Shown one piece after another: positions 10,349-21,363 of a stretch of 24,777 nucleotides of DNA. Each line of letters begins with the position of its first letter. The first letter of the stretch is position 1. A program made the translations under genes and the position numbers. Origin of the DNA: an uncultured Lachnospiraceae bacterium (GTDB lineage: Bacteria > Bacillota > Clostridia > Lachnospirales > Lachnospiraceae); assembly GCA_934338765.1 (NCBI GenBank), contig CAKRHL010000012.1, forward strand, positions 1-24,777, given 5' to 3'. Under the pieces are notes generated by a model. That model was not told the origin of the DNA and made no database searches. It saw nothing but the letters and a program-made list of their open reading frames with translations.

Positions 10349-10759
10349 CTATTTGTCCTTATTAAAGAAACGCATCTCCGACTTCTGCTCTGCATACTGT
10401 TTTGCTACGATCTGCAGTCCCTGCAGTCTGTGGCACTCCGGACACAGTGTACCAAAATCGATAGGCTTGCCGCATATCTGGCAGTGAACAGCTGATACCG
10501 TCTGTCCGGCATCTCCCTTATACTGTATTCTCCCCTCCCGGATCCACTTTCTCACCTTGGATACCGGAATATCAAAATGCTCTGCTACATCCAGTTCTTT
10601 AACGTCATTCTCTCTGATAAAATCCTTTACCTCCGCAAAGAGATTTGTTTCCTTGCAGGTCGGACAAATATCATCCTCATCATAAACATCCGGAAGGACC
10701 CTGCCACACTGCGTACATCGAGGCGCCTCTTCAAACAGCTCTCTTGATCTTGCAATCAT
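10349..10759 (-). CDS. Zinc-ribbon / helix-turn-helix protein, YvyF (TIGR03826)-like
   Basis: Small cytoplasmic protein of 136 residues with two zinc ribbons flanking a HTH-like segment. Cysteines occur as C15xxC18 and C32xxC35 (CTQCGR, CPTC) and again as C93xxC96 and C106xxC109 (CQICGK, CPEC). Between them, residues ~55-80 (LDVAEHFDIPVSKVRKWIREGRIQY) resemble MerR/excisionase-type DNA-binding helices. The layout matches the YvyF/TIGR03826 family found in Firmicute flagellar operons, but no flagellar gene lies nearby. The start at 10759 has AAAGGAGGTG in front of it; the open frame extends further up to 10969, but that part overlaps a regulator remnant and is not coding. A promoter (TTGCAG, 17 bp, TATATT) is placed correctly for this start. 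Function is unknown; DNA or RNA binding is inferred. Confidence 0.75.
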   Translation of the reverse strand: MIARSRELFEEAPRCTQCGRVLPDVYDEDDICPTCKETNLFAEVKDFIRENDVKELDVAEHFDIPVSKVRKWIREGRIQYKGDAGQTVSAVHCQICGKPIDFGTLCPECHRLQGLQIVAKQYAEQKSEMRFFNKDK

Positions 10760-10799
10760 GGGAGCACCTCCTTTTCTATAAAATAAATCACTTATACTA

Positions 10800-10828
10800 A
10801 ATATACCGCATATACCGTTTCTCTGCAA
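10800..10828 (-). promoter_or_regulatory. Promoter of the zinc-ribbon gene
   Basis: Minus-strand TTGCAG (10828-10823), 17 bases, TATATT (10805-10800), about 40 bp upstream of the start codon at 10759. Confidence 0.55.
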
Positions 10829-10860
10829 GAATGAGTTTTGACCTGCTGCCACGGATCCTG

Positions 10861-10965
10861 TCATGAATGCTGCCATCCGCTTCTCTCCCGTCTGTATTCC
10901 ATCGGTGTCGTACCATAGATCCTCCGAAAAATTCTCGAAAAATAACTGTTGCTTTGAAATCCCCA
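10861..10965 (-). pseudogene. AraC-family regulator remnant (C-terminal HTH only)
   Basis: Directly after the TGA stop of the M56-like gene, the same frame reads 34 codons to its own TGA. They include FQSNSYFSRIFRRIYG and TTPMEYRRER, the hallmark second helix-turn-helix and C-terminal end of AraC/XylS regulators (consensus GFxxxSYFSRxFKKxxGxSPxEYR). The normal 3' end of such a gene is therefore intact, while the first HTH and the sensor half are missing. It has no start codon or ribosome-binding site. The simplest reading is a deletion or recombination scar that joined the M56-like gene to the tail of a former araC-type gene. Confidence 0.75.
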
Positions 10966-13044
10966 TCATTCCCGGCTATACTGCAGGGAGGTCTCTTCTC
11001 CGGACGACAGACTGTACCTGTAGGTTCCCTTGACCGCCACATCGTCCTTGGCGCTTGCCGCAAAATTGATCTTCAATACATCATCCTGATCGATCTCCAT
11101 CAGAGAATACACGACCGCTCCATCCTTTTCAAATGAAACATCCTTTGACGCACCATATTTTTTGAAAATATTCTGTAATGCTTCATTACCGCTCTGCGGC
11201 CGATAACAAAGTCTCCCATTTTCAATATCATACAGGGAAAAGGTTCTTCCCGCTGTTCCATTATAAGTCAACAAAGCATATTTTTTCTGATCGTTATCCG
11301 ATGGCGCCCATTGCAGATCAAGATAATACCCCTCAACATCCGTCATGGTTTTTGTCCCCGTCCGCCGGTCCAGCCCATCCGGATTGATCTTGACTTTTTC
11401 AATGGCGAGTCCGCCGTTATCCTGTGTGCTGACGGCAACATTCATAACCTCTTTGCCCTTGTCATTTTTGAGGGAATAATACTTAGGTGTATCCTGTGTC
11501 TCCGCACTCTTCCGGCTTCGTCGTTTCTCAAGCTCCTCCTCTGTCATTTCCTGCTGTTCGTATCTTCCTTTTGCAGTATCCCAGACATAATATGTCGTTT
11601 CATCCTCCTCTGTCACTGTGATCACGCCTCCTGCCCCCTGCACATAGGACAACACCATAGAACCCTCCTGCAGCGACGTAACCTGATCCAGATAGATTGC
11701 CGGACTCACAACCGACAGCGAATCTTTCTCTATATTAATAATATAGTAGTTATATTTCTTTTCAGCATTTTTTCCGGTCCTTTGTCCCACGGCAATCTCC
11801 ATGGTGCCGTCCTCATTATAGTCTGCCGTTTTCAGCGATACATTCTCCGGAAATTGCTGCGTATCCGTACCGGCAAAAACCTTTGTAAGGGCAAGCTCCG
11901 TCAGTTTCTTTCCCTGCTCATCCTTTAACCGGAGCTTCCCCGCTCCCTTATATCCTTTTCCTTTTTGAAAGGTCCCCCCGGTCATCACCAGCTCCAGACG
12001 AACGGCACTTCCACTGGAAACCTGAGTTTCGCAGCCGGCAATGACATGGTTTGTTATGTTTTTTGCCCGGCTGCTGTCAAAAAGCTTATCCTGATCCGTT
12101 CCGGCTCCCTTATTTCCCTGAAATGCAGATAGAGCAAACGCCCAAAAGACCAATAATGTCACCACAAATGATGCGAGTCCCGACTGCCATAACGGCTTTT
12201 TCCTGATATACAAGAGGTTGCCCGCTCTTCGGAACAAATCCCCCTCATAACCGGTCACAAGTGACGGCGATATTTTGCGTTCCTTATCCTGCTTCATATT
12301 GGCAAGCACCTGTGCACATTGCGCCGGCTCCATACCTGTTTTTTTCACAAAAGCTGCATCGCAGGCCGTATTCTGATCACGCCAGAGCAGATAATATGCA
12401 AGCCACAATGCAGGATTCCACCAATGAATACAACATACCAGAAATGCAAGCCCCCTCCACAGATCATCTCCCCTCCGTCTGCGCAGTGCTTCATAGGCAA
12501 CGACGTCCTTCATCTCCCGCGCCAGAAGTCCTTCCGGAAGATATACTCTGCTGTTTACGAGGCCGCACCTGACGGGAAAGACAGTCATTGGCGACTCATA
12601 TATCCGGTCAAACAGGCACCGGGAATTTTGCTTCAACTTTCTCCTCAGCCGCAGCTGCTTCCACATCACTCCCATGAGCAAAAGCAGCATCCCCCCAAGC
12701 CATATGAGCACACAGATCCGATATGCTCTACCGGCACATATCGCCCCCTCAAACACATATCTCCACCCGGTCAAAAGACCTTTATCCGGCGAAATCTGAA
12801 GTCCCAGAGACCGAAGCAGTGTATGAAACCGGCGGTTCCACGGATCATATATACACACAGGGCTGCTCATGCCCAGAGGACAAACCGCCCGCAAAAACAG
12901 GATCCACCACAACACCAGCGTAAGTCCCTTAGAGAGATTGCGAAAAAGGAAACGTAAAAACAGGATCCCCGGAAGCAGCACAAGCGCCATACAGCTCATG
13001 GAGAATACCGTATAAAACAGTCGATATAATATATCCATAATCAT
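10966..13044 (-). CDS. BlaR1/M56-like membrane protein with degenerate zinc site
   Basis: Membrane protein of 692 residues related to the M56 (BlaR1/MecR1) peptidases. The ATG at 13044 (MIMDILYRLF) has GGGAGG 8 bases upstream; the frame continues to 13128 without a site. The N-terminal half has four hydrophobic segments (~12-36, 42-60, 110-128, 325-345) and the M56 landmarks LWWILFLRAVCP, VFPVRCGLVNSRVYLP and HWWNPALWLAYYLL. At the expected HExxH motif it reads YEALR (184-188). The ExACD motif after HWWNP reads NTACD, so the third ligand is also gone; proteolysis is unlikely. After the last helix, residues ~350-692 form a long beta-rich extracytoplasmic domain (for example TADYNEDGTMEIAVGQ) that is not a penicillin-binding domain. 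M56 genes usually follow a BlaI-type repressor; none is here, and the divergent neighbour is nadE. It may be a receptor or scaffold without protease activity. Confidence 0.8.
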   Translation of the reverse strand: MIMDILYRLFYTVFSMSCMALVLLPGILFLRFLFRNLSKGLTLVLWWILFLRAVCPLGMSSPVCIYDPWNRRFHTLLRSLGLQISPDKGLLTGWRYVFEGAICAGRAYRICVLIWLGGMLLLLMGVMWKQLRLRRKLKQNSRCLFDRIYESPMTVFPVRCGLVNSRVYLPEGLLAREMKDVVAYEALRRRRGDDLWRGLAFLVCCIHWWNPALWLAYYLLWRDQNTACDAAFVKKTGMEPAQCAQVLANMKQDKERKISPSLVTGYEGDLFRRAGNLLYIRKKPLWQSGLASFVVTLLVFWAFALSAFQGNKGAGTDQDKLFDSSRAKNITNHVIAGCETQVSSGSAVRLELVMTGGTFQKGKGYKGAGKLRLKDEQGKKLTELALTKVFAGTDTQQFPENVSLKTADYNEDGTMEIAVGQRTGKNAEKKYNYYIINIEKDSLSVVSPAIYLDQVTSLQEGSMVLSYVQGAGGVITVTEEDETTYYVWDTAKGRYEQQEMTEEELEKRRSRKSAETQDTPKYYSLKNDKGKEVMNVAVSTQDNGGLAIEKVKINPDGLDRRTGTKTMTDVEGYYLDLQWAPSDNDQKKYALLTYNGTAGRTFSLYDIENGRLCYRPQSGNEALQNIFKKYGASKDVSFEKDGAVVYSLMEIDQDDVLKINFAASAKDDVAVKGTYRYSLSSGEETSLQYSRE

Positions 13045-13072
13045 TGTACATTCCTCCCTTCGTCTGCAACCT

Positions 13073-13108
13073 CCGGACCACAGGCATAATATTGTAACCC
13101 GGACCACA
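13073..13108. repeat. 10-bp direct repeat upstream of the M56-like gene
   Basis: CCGGACCACA occurs at 13073-13082 and again at 13099-13108, 26 bp apart start to start, about 30-65 bp upstream of the M56-like start codon. It could be a tandem activator or repressor site; no regulator is adjacent. Confidence 0.45.
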
Positions 13109-13186
13109 ACCGCTTTATTACACAACAAAAACTATCATAACATATCTCTGTGTGATATGAAATACTCAAAGGGCCGGGGACAATGA

Positions 13187-16345: not shown

Positions 16346-17149
16346 TTACTTTTCCATCAGGTACAAATAATATTTTCCATTCTTTTGTTCCACTTTTATC
16401 TTCCCTTTTATCTTTTCCCCTGTGTCCTTATTTTCTTTTGTGACAGAGATAGACGGCGATACTGTTTTGTCCACTATATCTGTAACCCGAAGAGAACAGC
16501 CAATCTGTGTACCGGATGCGCAGGTTACTTTTGATTTCCTGTTTCCCTGTAATACAATCTTATTTTTTTCTTTATAATTTTCTGCGATCAGCTCCATTGA
16601 AACACCGGAAGCCTTTAATGCATAGCCGGTCTGATCATCTGTTTCCCCAAACTGTAATGTAAACTGTATCTTTTTATCCTTTCCTTCGCCCGTAATATTG
16701 GTATAGAGAAGCTGTCTCTCTCCTGTCAGAAGCTGTTCCCCGTCAGAAACATAATCATTATCTGCTGTATTGTTTCCTGGCACCGAATCAGAATATGCGT
16801 ATTGCGTCACATCCTCACCCATTCCGGATGCCATGCACCAGATATCCAGCTCTTCCTCTGAAGCTGTCCGCAACTGGTCTGACCCCTTTAAGGCAGCTTT
16901 CTCTTGTGTCTTATCTGTATCTGCCATCTGCCTTTGTAAAAATGAGCGATCACTTCCATACAGTACAACTATACTTATAACTGCTGCCGCTGCCAGACCG
17001 CTAAATACCTCTATACGATGTTTCCGTTTCCTTTTCTGTTTCCTCTTTATCCCTTCAAAATCCAGAGCATCACAGATCATCTGCTCCGGCAATTCTCCAA
17101 TGGCATCTGCAATCTGCTCTGCCCTTTTGTTTGTATCATGTTTCTTCAC
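16346..17149 (-). CDS. Membrane anti-sigma-like protein, partner of the adjacent ECF sigma factor
   Basis: Single-pass membrane protein of 267 residues. Residues 1-45 are a cytoplasmic segment (AEQIADAIGELPEQMICDAL, then a very basic KRKQKRKRKHR), ~48-64 the membrane helix (FSGLAAAAVISIVVLYG), and 65-267 an extracytoplasmic domain rich in polar beta strands. The start is GTG at 17149 with AAGGAGG 9 bases upstream; it overlaps the sigma factor stop (GTGA), so the two are translationally coupled. Position, coupling and topology argue for an anti-sigma role, with the short cytoplasmic part holding the sigma factor. It lacks a visible HxxxCxxC zinc motif. The outer domain is of unknown fold and is a candidate sensor. 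Third gene of the serpin-sigma operon. Anti-sigma function is inferred from context, not from a recognised domain. Confidence 0.7.
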   Translation of the reverse strand: MKKHDTNKRAEQIADAIGELPEQMICDALDFEGIKRKQKRKRKHRIEVFSGLAAAAVISIVVLYGSDRSFLQRQMADTDKTQEKAALKGSDQLRTASEEELDIWCMASGMGEDVTQYAYSDSVPGNNTADNDYVSDGEQLLTGERQLLYTNITGEGKDKKIQFTLQFGETDDQTGYALKASGVSMELIAENYKEKNKIVLQGNRKSKVTCASGTQIGCSLRVTDIVDKTVSPSISVTKENKDTGEKIKGKIKVEQKNGKYYLYLMEK

Positions 17150-17718
17150 AGATAAACCGCCTCCTTCTCCAGCCAGCCCTTCAGATCCTTACGCATCCGG
17201 CTGAGTGTTGACCGCACAGTCCCCTCTCTCATTCCAAGCTTCTCTGCAATCTCCTTTGTAGGCATCATATAAAAATATCTCTGCAAAAAGATCGCCCTGT
17301 TTCTCTCCGGCTGCCGGTCGAGAAATGCTGCAATGCTTGCCGACAATTCCTTAAGCTCGATCTGCTCCTCCACTGTCCTTCCGTCGGTAACGCAATCCTG
17401 TAATTCTTCCAGAGCAATATCCACACTGTTCCCCCCTCGTCGTGCTGTATGCATATATCTGTACCTGTTTAAAGACAGATTACGAATGATCTTTGCCAAA
17501 AATCCGGGCAATACTGCCGGTCGTTTCGGAGGAATGGCATTCCATGTCTGAAGCCATGTATCATTAACACATTCCCTGGCATCCTCCTCGTCATGAACGA
17601 TCCGATAGGATATACTATGACAATAGTTATTATATTTATCAGATAATCCTTTAAGCCCCTGTTCTTTCCGATCCCAGATCATCTGAATAATTTTCTCGTC
17701 TTCCATACACTTCTCCAT
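17146..17718 (-). CDS. ECF-type RNA polymerase sigma factor (serpin operon)
   Basis: Extracytoplasmic-function sigma factor of about 190 residues. Region 2 is at ~15-90 (YNNYCHSISYRIVHDEEDAREC, DTWLQTWNAIPP, FLAKIIRNLSLNRYR). Region 4 is at ~130-185 with the HTH PTKEIAEKLGMREGTVRSTLSRMRKDL. Between them is a short acidic linker (EELQDCVTDG). The start is taken at 17718 (MEKCMEDEK) after AGAGGGG; the ATG at 17706 is a fair alternative. It begins 23 bp after the serpin gene stop, with no terminator in between, and overlaps the anti-sigma-like gene by 4 bp. Hence the serpin gene, sigma gene and anti-sigma-like gene form one transcript. Target promoters cannot be read directly. Confidence 0.9.
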   Translation of the reverse strand: MEKCMEDEKIIQMIWDRKEQGLKGLSDKYNNYCHSISYRIVHDEEDARECVNDTWLQTWNAIPPKRPAVLPGFLAKIIRNLSLNRYRYMHTARRGGNSVDIALEELQDCVTDGRTVEEQIELKELSASIAAFLDRQPERNRAIFLQRYFYMMPTKEIAEKLGMREGTVRSTLSRMRKDLKGWLEKEAVYL

Positions 17719-17741
17719 ACGGGCACATCCCCTCTTTCCGG

Positions 17742-19226
17742 TTACTCAATCCGGCTCACTGCACCTACAAACAATGGTGCTCCCTGATTGTCTGACAACA
17801 TCATGATGAAAGGCCGGTTGCACTTCATTTTCATCTGTATGTCCGGGATCATCATTGATTCCTTTATTGTAATCTCTGTATAGGATGCCACACTACAGCC
17901 ATTCTCGTCAACCTTTACTGCCCCTGCCTGTCTTGCCCGGCTTACATAGAGATCCGGCACAGATGTTTCTTTGTCCTTATGCTTCCATATGCGTCCAAAG
18001 TCTGCTTTTTCCACCTGAAACGCATCCTTAATCCCCATTTCCTGCAGCATTGGGATAAGATCCATATCTGACTGAAATTGAAGCTTCGGCAGAGACAGCT
18101 TAACAAGACCCTGCTTCCACTTTGAGCATTCCGGATCACACAGCTCCAGGATCTCCCTGATACTCTCTGTGCTGCTTATCTGATCAAAGGATACTCCCTT
18201 TCCCGGAAGCACCAGCGTCATCCGCGTATTTTTCATAGGGATGGATACTGCCTGAAAGCGTTTATTTTCCATACATAAACCATCCCAGGAGGTATTCATA
18301 AAATCACATGTCACCTTATCCAGCTTTTCCTCTTCTGTGGTATTGCCACAGGTATAATAATTGCGTCCATAGAATACATCCTTGCGTGTGTCCTTCCGGT
18401 TAAATACCTGCTCCTCCCATTCATCCTTAAAATTTGCAGCGGACAGAAGCATCATTGCCATATCCGCCTCTGTTTTTATATTGGAAGAAATCTCCTTTCG
18501 AAGCTTCCCTCCTGTCTGATGATCCAGCCAATTCTGTATCTCTTCATCAAAAGCCGGATCTCCCATTCTGCCGGAATCGCACTTTGCGTTATAACTGTTC
18601 TTCAAAATATCTGTCATACTATTCGAATAATCATACCGGTCACTAAACCAGACCGAATTTCCAAAAGAGCAGACACCGGAAGCCTCTTTGCCATACAGCC
18701 ACTGTGAAACCTGACGGATCGCCGTCTGTCGTCTGTCCCCTTTGCACTTTTGCTCCTCAGCAGAAACGCACATATGATTCTTTACCGATGTCTCTTCATC
18801 CAGTCCACCCAGTCCATCCTGCAGCTGCCGCCTCGTCTCTCCATCTCCCATCTCCGACAACATTCCCAATGCCATATAAAGATTTACCGGAGAGTACAAT
18901 ACCGCCCCCTGTCTGGGATTCTCCCCCCAGTTTAGCTGTAAAAATTTCGAAATGGATGTCTCACAATACACCTTATATTGCTTTTCAAAATCGGATTCCG
19001 TGATTTCATCTTCATCATTTGCACTAATGTCTGTCCCAAGTTCACTCCCGGCAGAATCCACGGGTGTTGATCTGCCTCCTGCTTCTTCCGGAACCGCAGT
19101 CTCCTTCCCCAACACCGTACCTCTGCCATTCAGCTCAGTTCCCGATTTCCTGCCGCACCCTGCCGTACCGATCAAAGAAAATGCCAATAGTAATATTAAA
19201 ACCTGATTTCTCCTCCAATACTTCAT
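17742..19226 (-). CDS. Serpin-family lipoprotein (protease inhibitor)
   Basis: Surface lipoprotein of 494 residues with a complete serpin fold. The start at 19226 (MKYWRRN) is chosen for AAGGGGG 8 bases upstream; a further ATG at 19247 is less likely. The signal peptide ends in the lipobox TAGC, with C24 as lipidation site, followed by a polar linker to ~95. Serpin landmarks run in order: YSPVNLYMALGML, QNWLDHQTGGKL, LSAANFKDEWEEQVF, VSIPMKNTRMTLVLPG and the C-terminal NRPFIMMLSDNQGAPLFVG. The reactive loop is about residues 443-468. Its hinge (VDENGCSVASYTEI) is less Ala-rich than in strong inhibitors, and by spacing from the hinge Gly the scissile bond falls near S457-M458. Bacterial serpins are known to inhibit host or microbial serine proteases. 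Here it is the first gene of an operon with an ECF sigma factor and its membrane partner, which suggests proteolytic-stress defence or signalling. Confidence 0.9.
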   Translation of the reverse strand: MKYWRRNQVLILLLAFSLIGTAGCGRKSGTELNGRGTVLGKETAVPEEAGGRSTPVDSAGSELGTDISANDEDEITESDFEKQYKVYCETSISKFLQLNWGENPRQGAVLYSPVNLYMALGMLSEMGDGETRRQLQDGLGGLDEETSVKNHMCVSAEEQKCKGDRRQTAIRQVSQWLYGKEASGVCSFGNSVWFSDRYDYSNSMTDILKNSYNAKCDSGRMGDPAFDEEIQNWLDHQTGGKLRKEISSNIKTEADMAMMLLSAANFKDEWEEQVFNRKDTRKDVFYGRNYYTCGNTTEEEKLDKVTCDFMNTSWDGLCMENKRFQAVSIPMKNTRMTLVLPGKGVSFDQISSTESIREILELCDPECSKWKQGLVKLSLPKLQFQSDMDLIPMLQEMGIKDAFQVEKADFGRIWKHKDKETSVPDLYVSRARQAGAVKVDENGCSVASYTEITIKESMMIPDIQMKMKCNRPFIMMLSDNQGAPLFVGAVSRIE

Positions 19227-19270
19227 CTGAAAATCCCCCTTTGTCATATTTTAGAATGATGCATTTGATA

Positions 19271-19290: not shown

Positions 19291-19327
19291 AAAAAAACGC
19301 ATCTACCTATATAGACACGTTTTTTTT
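19291..19327 (-). terminator. Terminator of the sigma/anti-sigma/TM2 operon
   Basis: Minus-strand ACGTGTCTA pairs with TAGATGCGT around a 6-base loop; the two G-U wobbles pair only in minus-strand RNA. An A-run precedes and a T-run of seven follows. It lies about 55 bp after the stop codon of the last gene of that operon. Confidence 0.8.
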
Positions 19328-20285: not shown

Positions 20286-20825
20286 TTATTGCTTCTTTTT
20301 CATAAACCAGTTACTGATGTCCCACTTGCTTTCCTGCTGCTTTTTTTCTACAAACTTTTCTCTCTGCTCCTTCTGTTTCTGCCTTTCCTTCTCTAACCGC
20401 TGCTGGTAAGCAAGCTTTTCAGAATCCTGCTTTGGTATGATCCTCTCCGGATCACACCTGGAAACAGATGTCCCCACATCGGAAATGATATGAGACTGTG
20501 TCGTTACCGGCAGCCCCCGTTCTCCCTGAAAATTCACTGTCACCATAAGGCCCAGTGCCATACAGACGCCCAATGCCACTCTGGTACAATACCGGTAATA
20601 TTCTCTCTGTTTCTGCTTCCGGTCAGGAATCTTTGCTGCTTTCTCCAAAATTCCTGCTGTTACTCCCCGAGGCAGCGATATCATTTCCACCTCCGGGAGT
20701 CCTGACGCCAGCCTTCCGGCACAGTATTCGCACTGTGCCGCATGCTGCAATAATTCCATTTCTTCCTTTGCATCCAACTGATGCTTATAATATTTCGCGA
20801 TCTGCTGATCCGTAATATGTGCCAT
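20286..20825 (-). CDS. Zinc-finger anti-sigma factor
   Basis: Membrane-bound anti-sigma factor of 179 residues. The N-terminal domain contains H28, C32 and C35 (QHAAQCEYC), the HxxxCxxC core of the zinc-binding anti-sigma domain, which clamps ECF sigma factors in the cytoplasm. One membrane helix follows at ~81-98 (TRVALGVCMALGLMVTV). The outer part (~100-179) ends in a highly charged helical stretch (LEKERQKQKEQREKF) and a basic tail. The gene starts 13 bp after the sigma factor stop. Signal-dependent proteolysis of such proteins frees the sigma factor in studied relatives; whether that applies here is unknown. Confidence 0.82.
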   Translation of the reverse strand: MAHITDQQIAKYYKHQLDAKEEMELLQHAAQCEYCAGRLASGLPEVEMISLPRGVTAGILEKAAKIPDRKQKQREYYRYCTRVALGVCMALGLMVTVNFQGERGLPVTTQSHIISDVGTSVSRCDPERIIPKQDSEKLAYQQRLEKERQKQKEQREKFVEKKQQESKWDISNWFMKKKQ

Positions 20826-20838
20826 AATGCGCCTCCTT

Positions 20839-21363
20839 TCATGGTCTGACCATCTTTGGTCCCAGTTTTTTCTGAAGCATTTTCTTTGCTCTTAAAACCT
20901 GTGTCTGTACTGTCTTTAATTTGATCCCCTTCTGTTCTGCGATCTCCCGCGCGGTCCTGTCGCAGCAATAAAATTCATAGGCAATCTGTCCATATGGGGG
21001 CTTCAGATCGCGGCACGCTCTCGCAAGCTCCTCCTTCACTTCCTCCTCCAGAAGCCGTTCCTCCGGTGATGAAACTGTGCCGGCCCTGCTTTCCAGCACC
21101 TCCGATTCCGAAGGCATTTCTTTCCTTCCTTTTCGTTTCAAAAAGTCCAGACATTTATTCGTCGCAATCTTTGTCAAAAATGCTTTTTCATTCTGCCCGT
21201 CAAAACGATCCAGAACTTTATAATATGTAAGAAATGTTTCCTGTGTCGCATCCTGCGCCTCAAAATAATCACCCACCATACGATAGCAGATGGAAAAGAT
21301 CAGCCTCTCATATTTTTCCAGGGCTCTCTCCAACTGCGCTGTCTGTATGGAATTGTCCGTCAA
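20839..21363 (-). CDS. ECF-type RNA polymerase sigma factor (TM2/LiaF operon)
   Basis: ECF sigma factor of 174 residues. Region 2 covers ~10-80 (YERLIFSICYRMVGDYFEAQDATQ-type core, FLTKIATNKCLDFLKRKGRK) and region 4 ~115-170 (REIAEQKGIKLKTVQTQVLRAKKML). The start codon is TTG at 21363, fixed by the excellent AAAGGAGGTGAT 9 bases upstream; the nearby ATG is in another frame. The gene heads a four-gene operon with its zinc-finger anti-sigma. A strong housekeeping promoter is present (21393-21420). An overlapping TGAAGG, 17 bases, CGTT could be an ECF autoregulatory promoter, which is common for this class. The second ECF system in the window is unrelated in detail (different anti-sigma type). 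Confidence 0.9.
   Translation of the reverse strand: MTDNSIQTAQLERALEKYERLIFSICYRMVGDYFEAQDATQETFLTYYKVLDRFDGQNEKAFLTKIATNKCLDFLKRKGRKEMPSESEVLESRAGTVSSPEERLLEEEVKEELARACRDLKPPYGQIAYEFYCCDRTAREIAEQKGIKLKTVQTQVLRAKKMLQKKLGPKMVRP

Follow-up and report, generated by a model that had tools for sequence, protein, structure and literature searches.

In the stretch of 24,777 nucleotides from an uncultured Lachnospiraceae bacterium that was analyzed here (contig CAKRHL010000012.1; the whole stretch is termed the window herein), three minus-strand genes follow one another in the order serpin lipoprotein, extracytoplasmic function (ECF) sigma factor, and single-pass membrane protein (P0001). Serpins are linked with sigma/anti-sigma systems, and this link is well supported: in many related bacteria, the serpin domain is itself the outer part of an anti-sigma-like membrane protein, whose gene mostly starts close to the 3' end of a gene for an ECF sigma factor. 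Because P0001 matches the N-terminal profile of the fused proteins, the window appears to hold a split form of such a serpin-bearing anti-sigma system. We propose that the three genes might form one module that couples extracellular protease contact to an intracellular ECF sigma factor in an RsiV-like way of working, a proposal to which we give an even chance and whose observed base is the gene order, the fusions, the conserved hinge, and the shared N-terminal profile.

The features of the window are the following:
17742..19226, minus strand: serpin lipoprotein gene, 494 amino acids (aa) (PF00079, AlphaFold2 serpin fold, lipobox TAGC).
17841..17906, minus strand: serpin hinge and reactive-center loop, ENGCSVASYT followed by EITIKESMMIPD (hinge invariant in 13 close sequences).
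17146..17718, minus strand: ECF sigma factor, 190 aa (Sigma70_r2, Sigma70_r4_2, TIGR02937; 91% identity in G002).
16346..17149, minus strand: anti-sigma-like single-pass membrane protein, 267 aa, with the N-terminal motif AEQIADAIGELPEQMICDAL (profile of fused-serpin N termini, alignment A1).
19305..19316, minus strand: GTCTATATAGGT element, candidate promoter (search with the 12-mer GTCTATATARGT over the loci).

Three adjoining genes in the window

The sigma gene (17146-17718) encodes a protein with Sigma70_r2 and Sigma70_r4_2 matches above the cut-off and a TIGR02937 match of 78.9 bits; it contains regions 2 and 4 only, which is the ECF type. The serpin stop and the sigma start are 23 bp apart, and the sigma and membrane protein genes overlap by 4 bp (17146-17149), with the GTG start of P0001 at 17149. 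This layout had been read in a first-pass annotation made from the sequence and was borne out by the open reading frames (ORFs) and by profile searches. A terminator scan of the minus strand from 16346 to 19226 found one weak hairpin only, which lies within the serpin gene. P0001 has a single hydrophobic stretch at about residues 48 to 65 (the membrane helix) and an outer domain without a recognized fold. It also had been described as lacking a zinc motif, in agreement with the absence of a zf-HC2 match in P0001.

Serpins fused or adjacent to anti-sigma-like proteins across the family

Serpins matching PF00079 were found in 105 of the 299 genomes of the family sample. Twenty regions were fetched first, 16 chosen for close sigma and serpin matches and 4 for other reasons, followed by nearly all other listed places; about eight listed serpin places (on G076:C16, G241:C22, G092:C166, G092:C51, G201:C48, and G118:C36) and an unlisted tail were left out. 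The duplicate loci L061 and L066 and three ORFs under 300 aa were dropped, and the classification set comprised 144 serpin ORFs plus the window (145 rows). L148 stands in this count as two overlapping frames that are probably one broken gene, and L002 was labeled by hand.

Twenty-four rows, from 19 genomes, were of a fused type, with a short N terminus (MKKEDLFEALEDIDEKSVKEA) that is followed by basic residues, then by a membrane helix, and finally by a serpin domain (start codons of these 24 proteins were set by eye). The genes of 20 of them start at most 130 bp from the end of a same-strand ECF sigma gene (17 genomes, 17 genera), nine with an overlap of exactly 4 bp; the other four are L054 (1548 bp from the sigma gene), the second copy in L057 (2276 bp), L064 (736 bp), and L068 (none in the stretch). 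Some genomes encode several different fused anti-sigma/serpin proteins, three in G042 (L073, L074, and L085) and two in G133 (L067 and L068), as though directed at different proteases. P0045 from Hominifimenecus sp. rT4P-3 (Lachnospiraceae) is an example from a named organism; its source labels it only as "serpin family protein." Fusions also occur in other families of the class, where the L149 and L156 genes each share 4 bp with a sigma gene. In one further protein, P0140, this type of serpin is joined in frame to an ABC-transporter ATPase domain (1 member sequence, 2 contigs); it is perhaps a chimera.

The order sigma gene, separate anti-sigma-like gene, serpin gene was found in nine rows, a type that is probably undercounted because the flanks of L006 to L035 extend for just 1.5 kb and a contig end cuts off some loci. 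Seven rows have the serpin gene followed by a sigma gene within 115 bp (joined in L002), namely, the window, three relatives of its genus, and three rows from outside the genus; L081, which has a sigma gene and a weak anti-sigma-like match upstream and a sigma gene downstream, was counted once as serpin/sigma. Could these genes be chance neighbors? Many serpins stand alone, and the nearest sigma factor from outside the genus has no serpin beside it. The expectation, based on 406 sigma70-family matches in 58.8 Mb from 19 genomes that were chosen for carrying these systems, is about 0.1 sigma-before-serpin pairs (within 130 bp) and about 0.2 serpin-before-sigma pairs (within 300 bp) among 145 rows, compared to the observed 20 fused rows after a sigma gene and 6 serpin-before-sigma rows besides the window, and chance is hardly credible against these counts. 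The serpin/anti-sigma signaling link that the first-pass annotation had suggested is, through recurrent fusion and adjacency both within the family and in further families of its class, firmer than could be seen in the window, whereas its specific circuits, in which the serpin would guard the anti-sigma ectodomain or the sigma factor would raise serpin levels upon protease attack, stay at the level of inference.

In a FastTree serpin tree, the window serpin groups with those of L001, L002, and L065, and this clade of four lies within a starred set of 39 rows that includes 15 of the 24 fused ones. The fused label needs at least eight changes on the starred branches of this tree; therefore, fusion or splitting happened repeatedly. 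A single clade of serpin-linked sigma factors was rejected, as these are spread over two distant clades with mixed labels, and the fused label in the sigma tree showed no clustering beyond that of shuffled labels (227 of 500 shuffles were as low). Because the fused label changed repeatedly and the linked sigma factors fall into two distant clades, serpins apparently recur as an outer module in many sigma/anti-sigma pairs rather than belonging to one inherited cluster.

P0001 is a likely anti-sigma factor

A profile built from the N termini of the fused proteins, helix included, matched P0001 (E value, 1.2e-6) and its counterparts in L001 (1.2e-8), L002 (3.8e-7), and L065 (3e-8), as well as in L061 (within 1.2e-8 to 3.8e-7). 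It also matched serpin-free proteins encoded directly after sigma genes. Because the helix supplies part of the score and the weaker matches include proteins that look unrelated, a motif-only profile of the first 24 residues, without the helix, was built and searched against 2,678 sequences. The best 12 nonfused matches of this second profile are all encoded by genes that immediately follow a sigma gene (the 12 include two duplicates), with P0001 at rank 10, and none of 500 shuffles of the first 45 residues of P0001 reached its score with either profile. The N-terminal motif is a good marker of anti-sigma-like proteins as judged from these searches; P0001 by itself matches it weakly, and the gene position strengthens this match.

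With its N terminus of the LxxAIGxIDDxxIxxA type, the helix, and a gene overlapping the sigma gene by 4 bp, P0001 fits the anti-sigma-like group, and it is likely the anti-sigma factor of the adjoining sigma factor, which it would bind. The absent zinc motif is not odd because this group has a different conserved N-terminal motif. Neither an RsgI N-terminal domain nor an RsiV-type outer domain was found by Pfam and NCBIfam matches in P0001 or in the fused proteins tested.

That P0001 has an outer domain of its own and the window serpin is a separate lipoprotein would also suit a role of the serpin as output only: the sigma factor would answer some other envelope signal sensed by the anti-sigma outer domain, and the serpin would be a protective product. 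Other outer domains are also found on the anti-sigma-like partners of sigma factors of this group, and 105 of the 145 serpin rows have no sigma gene linkage. Against this account, the serpin physically is the outer domain of an anti-sigma-like protein in 24 rows, which is the place for a sensor rather than a product, and we regard a pure output role as unlikely, though as an account to be taken seriously.

Conservation within the genus

The named records nearest to the window are the Lachnospiraceae metagenome-assembled genomes SUG799 (G002) and RUG13384 (G001; RUG refers to rumen genomes); the nearest genome has 27% of sampled words in common with the window. SUG799 (locus L001) carries all three genes in unchanged order, with identities of 74% for the serpin, 91% for the sigma factor, and 60% for the membrane protein. 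Seven neighboring genes are 83 to 97% identical there, while serpin and anti-sigma-like protein diverge together. In G003 (L065/L183), the serpin gene, the sigma gene (62% identity), and the start of the anti-sigma-like gene stand in the same order at another genomic place, beside a long ORF that we take, from its first residues, for an alanyl-tRNA synthetase gene. The window-type order is found in L001, L065, and L013/L061. A conserved neighborhood had been proposed as a check on the first reading, and the recurrence of the serpin/sigma/anti-sigma order in the genus (L001 and L065/L183) leaves that reading standing.

In RUG13384 (L002, 1-1588), an in-frame natural deletion joins serpin and sigma factor, removing the loop and the sigma start: the serpin is cut just before the hinge and meets the sigma factor at about residue 45, and the anti-sigma-like gene is left open. 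The joined serpin-sigma form is present in the protein database as P0156 (6 member sequences, 2 contigs). In G195, which has the closest sigma factor from outside the genus, the sigma gene is followed by an anti-sigma-like gene and then by a lipoprotein-like gene without a serpin match, at the place taken by the serpin in other loci (L181, 2760-3701).

Start, fold, and hinge of the window serpin

The serpin ORF (17742-19247, minus strand) matches PF00079 with an E value of 4.5e-52 over residues 112 to 498 (profile positions 19 to 368 of 370). Translation probably begins at the ATG at 19226, which is preceded by AAAGGGGG, a good ribosome site, and opens the lipoprotein signal LIGTAGC; the close ortholog P0145, with 494 aa, agrees with this start. 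The AlphaFold2 model (predicted local distance difference test [pLDDT] score, 75) has a serpin core with the reactive loop as an inserted strand, and Foldseek matched it to cleaved and latent serpins, those of low root mean square deviation including cleaved serpins and miropin. The loop can be drawn as insertable because of this inserted strand in the model and the low-deviation matches to cleaved serpins.

In the hinge, the P15 Gly and P8 Thr agree with the inhibitory pattern, P12 is Val, and small residues (Ala/Gly/Ser/Thr) occupy two of the four positions P12 to P9. The hinge ENGCSVASYT is invariant over 13 close sequences (mean variability, 0.00, compared to 0.094 in the rest of the core) and nearly unchanged in relatives at about 36 to 46% identity. 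P14 is an invariant Cys (GCS) in the serpin group of the window, compared to the usual Thr or Val, and a Cys is also found in several fused proteins (e.g., GCTAAAYT). A hypervariable, arms-race type of loop was rejected as an idea, the loop window reaching only rank 77 of 375.

Among the fused rows, at least three of the four P12-to-P9 residues are small in 23 of 24, and P8 is Thr or Ser in 21 of 24 and Ile in the remaining three. The rule used for reading hinges takes the best-scoring candidate in range and favors good hinges; it found none in L002 or in 9 of the 105 unlinked rows, and it reads L065 in a shifted register (the true hinge of L065 is CSVASYT). The window serpin, which combines inhibitory-type features with a hinge less canonical than those of the fused relatives, may or may not be a protease inhibitor. 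Hormone-binding serpins of animals offer a model for another possibility, that the serpin domain has lost inhibition and acts as a sensor that binds a ligand or is simply cleaved. The unusual window hinge CSVASYT with its P12 Val and the Ile at P8 in three fused rows would fit such a domain; the small-residue hinge kept in 23 of 24 fused rows and the invariance of the window hinge in close orthologs argue against it, and we hold it to be very unlikely.

A candidate promoter element

The GTCTATATAGGT element lies about 80 to 90 bp ahead of the serpin start. It is also part of an inverted repeat with A and T flanks (about 19291-19327), a possible terminator of the upstream gene. In 926,252 bases of loci plus window (overlapping loci included), the 12-mer GTCTATATARGT had 7 matches, which represent 5 distinct operons, and all 7 precede the leading gene of a serpin/sigma operon by about 25 to 95 bp (window, L001 = L003, L013 = L061, L111, and L156). 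Genome-wide, it occurs once in G002, at the serpin operon, and once in G003, in a glycosyltransferase-like frame as read; G001, where the contig begins inside the serpin, has none. The reversed control pattern gave 0, 3, and 3 matches in G001, G002, and G003, respectively. We regard the 12-mer as a lead, a hint of possible autoregulation.

A de novo promoter motif from 30 upstream stretches was discarded, with a log-likelihood of 94.6 compared to 59.6 to 66.6 in six shuffles and no clean consensus, and fixed ECF-like patterns had almost no matches. A signal-peptidase-like AxA site after the helix (AEAxYPEM, in many fused proteins) was dropped as an argument for cleavage because free lipoprotein serpins from the clade in question carry nearly the same motif.

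Proposed mechanism and comparison with known systems

In the proposed module, P0001 would act as the anti-sigma factor, its short N terminus binding the sigma factor and its helix crossing the membrane. The serpin would be the outer domain of the anti-sigma factor itself in many relatives, whereas in the window it is a separate lipoprotein, most likely acting on the P0001 outer domain in trans. A target protease, as the putative signal, would attack the exposed serpin loop, and the large shape change of the serpin upon cleavage or trapping would alter the anti-sigma factor, directly if fused and possibly by contact if split. The altered anti-sigma factor might then be opened to site-1 and site-2 proteolysis, and the freed sigma factor might boost its own operon and thus provide more serpin. 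We favor a protease-sensor role of the serpin because the fused proteins make it the outer domain of the anti-sigma-like protein, and each half of the scheme has a precedent.

The closest parallel is the sigmaV/RsiV system of Bacillus subtilis and relatives, in which RsiV binds and inhibits lysozyme and binding exposes RsiV to signal peptidase and then to RasP (excerpted text of PMC5014341). Both systems have a sigma gene with a membrane anti-sigma protein, and the outer domain of RsiV binds and inhibits the attacking enzyme (same excerpt). Unlike the serpins, this outer domain binds lysozyme and is not a serpin, and no family match ties P0001 or the fused proteins tested to RsiV.

A different role near the same step would be that of a brake: the serpin might inhibit the site-1 protease of the anti-sigma factor and keep the sigma factor off until outside proteases use up the serpin, consistent with the inhibitory-type hinges in relatives and with a serpin gene adjoining the sigma and anti-sigma genes. 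To our knowledge, signal peptidase is not trapped by serpins, which counts against a brake, and the fused form would put the trap on the substrate itself. As signal peptidase is the site-1 protease of the nearest analogue (RsiV; excerpted text of PMC5014341), we consider a brake improbable.

In the sigmaI/RsgI systems of Clostridium thermocellum, one kind of N-terminal part is combined with exchangeable outer sensors (CBM, GH10, PA14, and S1C peptidase-like; excerpted text of PMC12203970). The serpin systems likewise share an N-terminal type with interchangeable outer domains, but their sigma factor is of the ECF type, the outer domain is a serpin or of unrecognized fold, and no RsgI-type match was found. 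In Bifidobacterium breve, papain induces a serpin gene through a neighboring two-component system (excerpted text of PMC8012564). The likeness would be a protease-switched bacterial serpin with its regulator next door, protease induction in our case being presumed; unlike the sigma/anti-sigma pair here, the regulators there are a histidine kinase and a response regulator, and the excerpt of PMC8012564 tells of no fusion. No histidine kinase/response regulator pair was found among the window ORFs searched. The siropins and miropin, gut and oral bacterial serpins, share the serpin fold, miropin being among the Foldseek matches to the window model. Unlike the serpins discussed here, they are described as inhibitors (siropins inhibit neutrophil elastase and proteinase 3; excerpted text of PMC6718151), and no word starting with "sigma" occurs in the main texts of PMC8233489 and PMC6718151.

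Several observations weigh against the proposed module. The single-chain structure model of P0001 is unusable (pLDDT, 33) and leaves the outer domain unmodeled; the helix-containing profile also matches apparently unrelated proteins (L184, 6347-7501, 3.0e-5; L039, 89-433, 2.1e-3), and the motif-only match of P0001 is weak (E value, 0.23). The hinge of the window, in which P12 is Val and only two of the four residues P12 to P9 are small, is noncanonical, likewise in L001 and L065, and P12 changes can convert serpins to substrates; the loop around P1 is not hypervariable; and the hinges of the unlinked rows look equally inhibitory (93 of the 96 rows with a hinge found, out of 105). The 105 of 145 serpin rows without any such sigma linkage also belong here, as do the fused protein L150, which has no sigma gene even in the longer stretch L184, and the closest outside sigma factor (G195, 58% identity), which has another lipoprotein alongside instead of a serpin. 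The M56 gene, a neighbor without a known tie to the operon, has diverged in G002 as well (53%), and the candidate promoter element is found in five operons only, with a weak de novo motif.

A wider proposal, which we put forward tentatively and hold to be possible rather than probable, is that Clostridia serpins are transmembrane receptors: the one-shot shape change of the trap would make a covalent, irreversible protease sensor that frees a sigma factor, fused or split, and that was recruited many times by different ECF lineages. We know of no serpin described as such a receptor class. Anti-sigma proteins with sensor domains are already known; no description of a serpin joined to an anti-sigma protein was found in the open-access literature searched, and a mention in ECF reclassification or subscription papers is possible. 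The physiological functions of bacterial serpins are described as elusive and data on their regulation as lacking (excerpted text of PMC6718151), and a serpin as anti-sigma outer domain gives a directly testable answer on their role for a set of Clostridia. If the proposal is true, Clostridia may sense host, dietary, or microbial proteases and respond by transcription, the RsiV principle of an inhibitor-like receptor for an attacking enzyme would hold for proteases as well as for lysozyme, and protease biosensors could be built with natural parts.

Neighboring genes

The M56 peptidase gene of the window is of the BlaR1 type (720 aa) and overlaps a gene with weak zinc-ribbon matches (both within 10349-13128, minus strand); a search of the window ORFs found no BlaI-like repressor among those covered. 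The M56 protein has only 53% identity in G002, while the adjacent NAD synthase has 89%. Near the serpin operon is a gene for a second ECF sigma factor, together with a gene for a weakly zf-HC2-like protein (20286-20825, below the cut-off; the pair spans 20286-21363, minus strand). Between the serpin operon and this second sigma pair, G002 has yet another sigma/anti-sigma-like pair (L182, 5778-7672).

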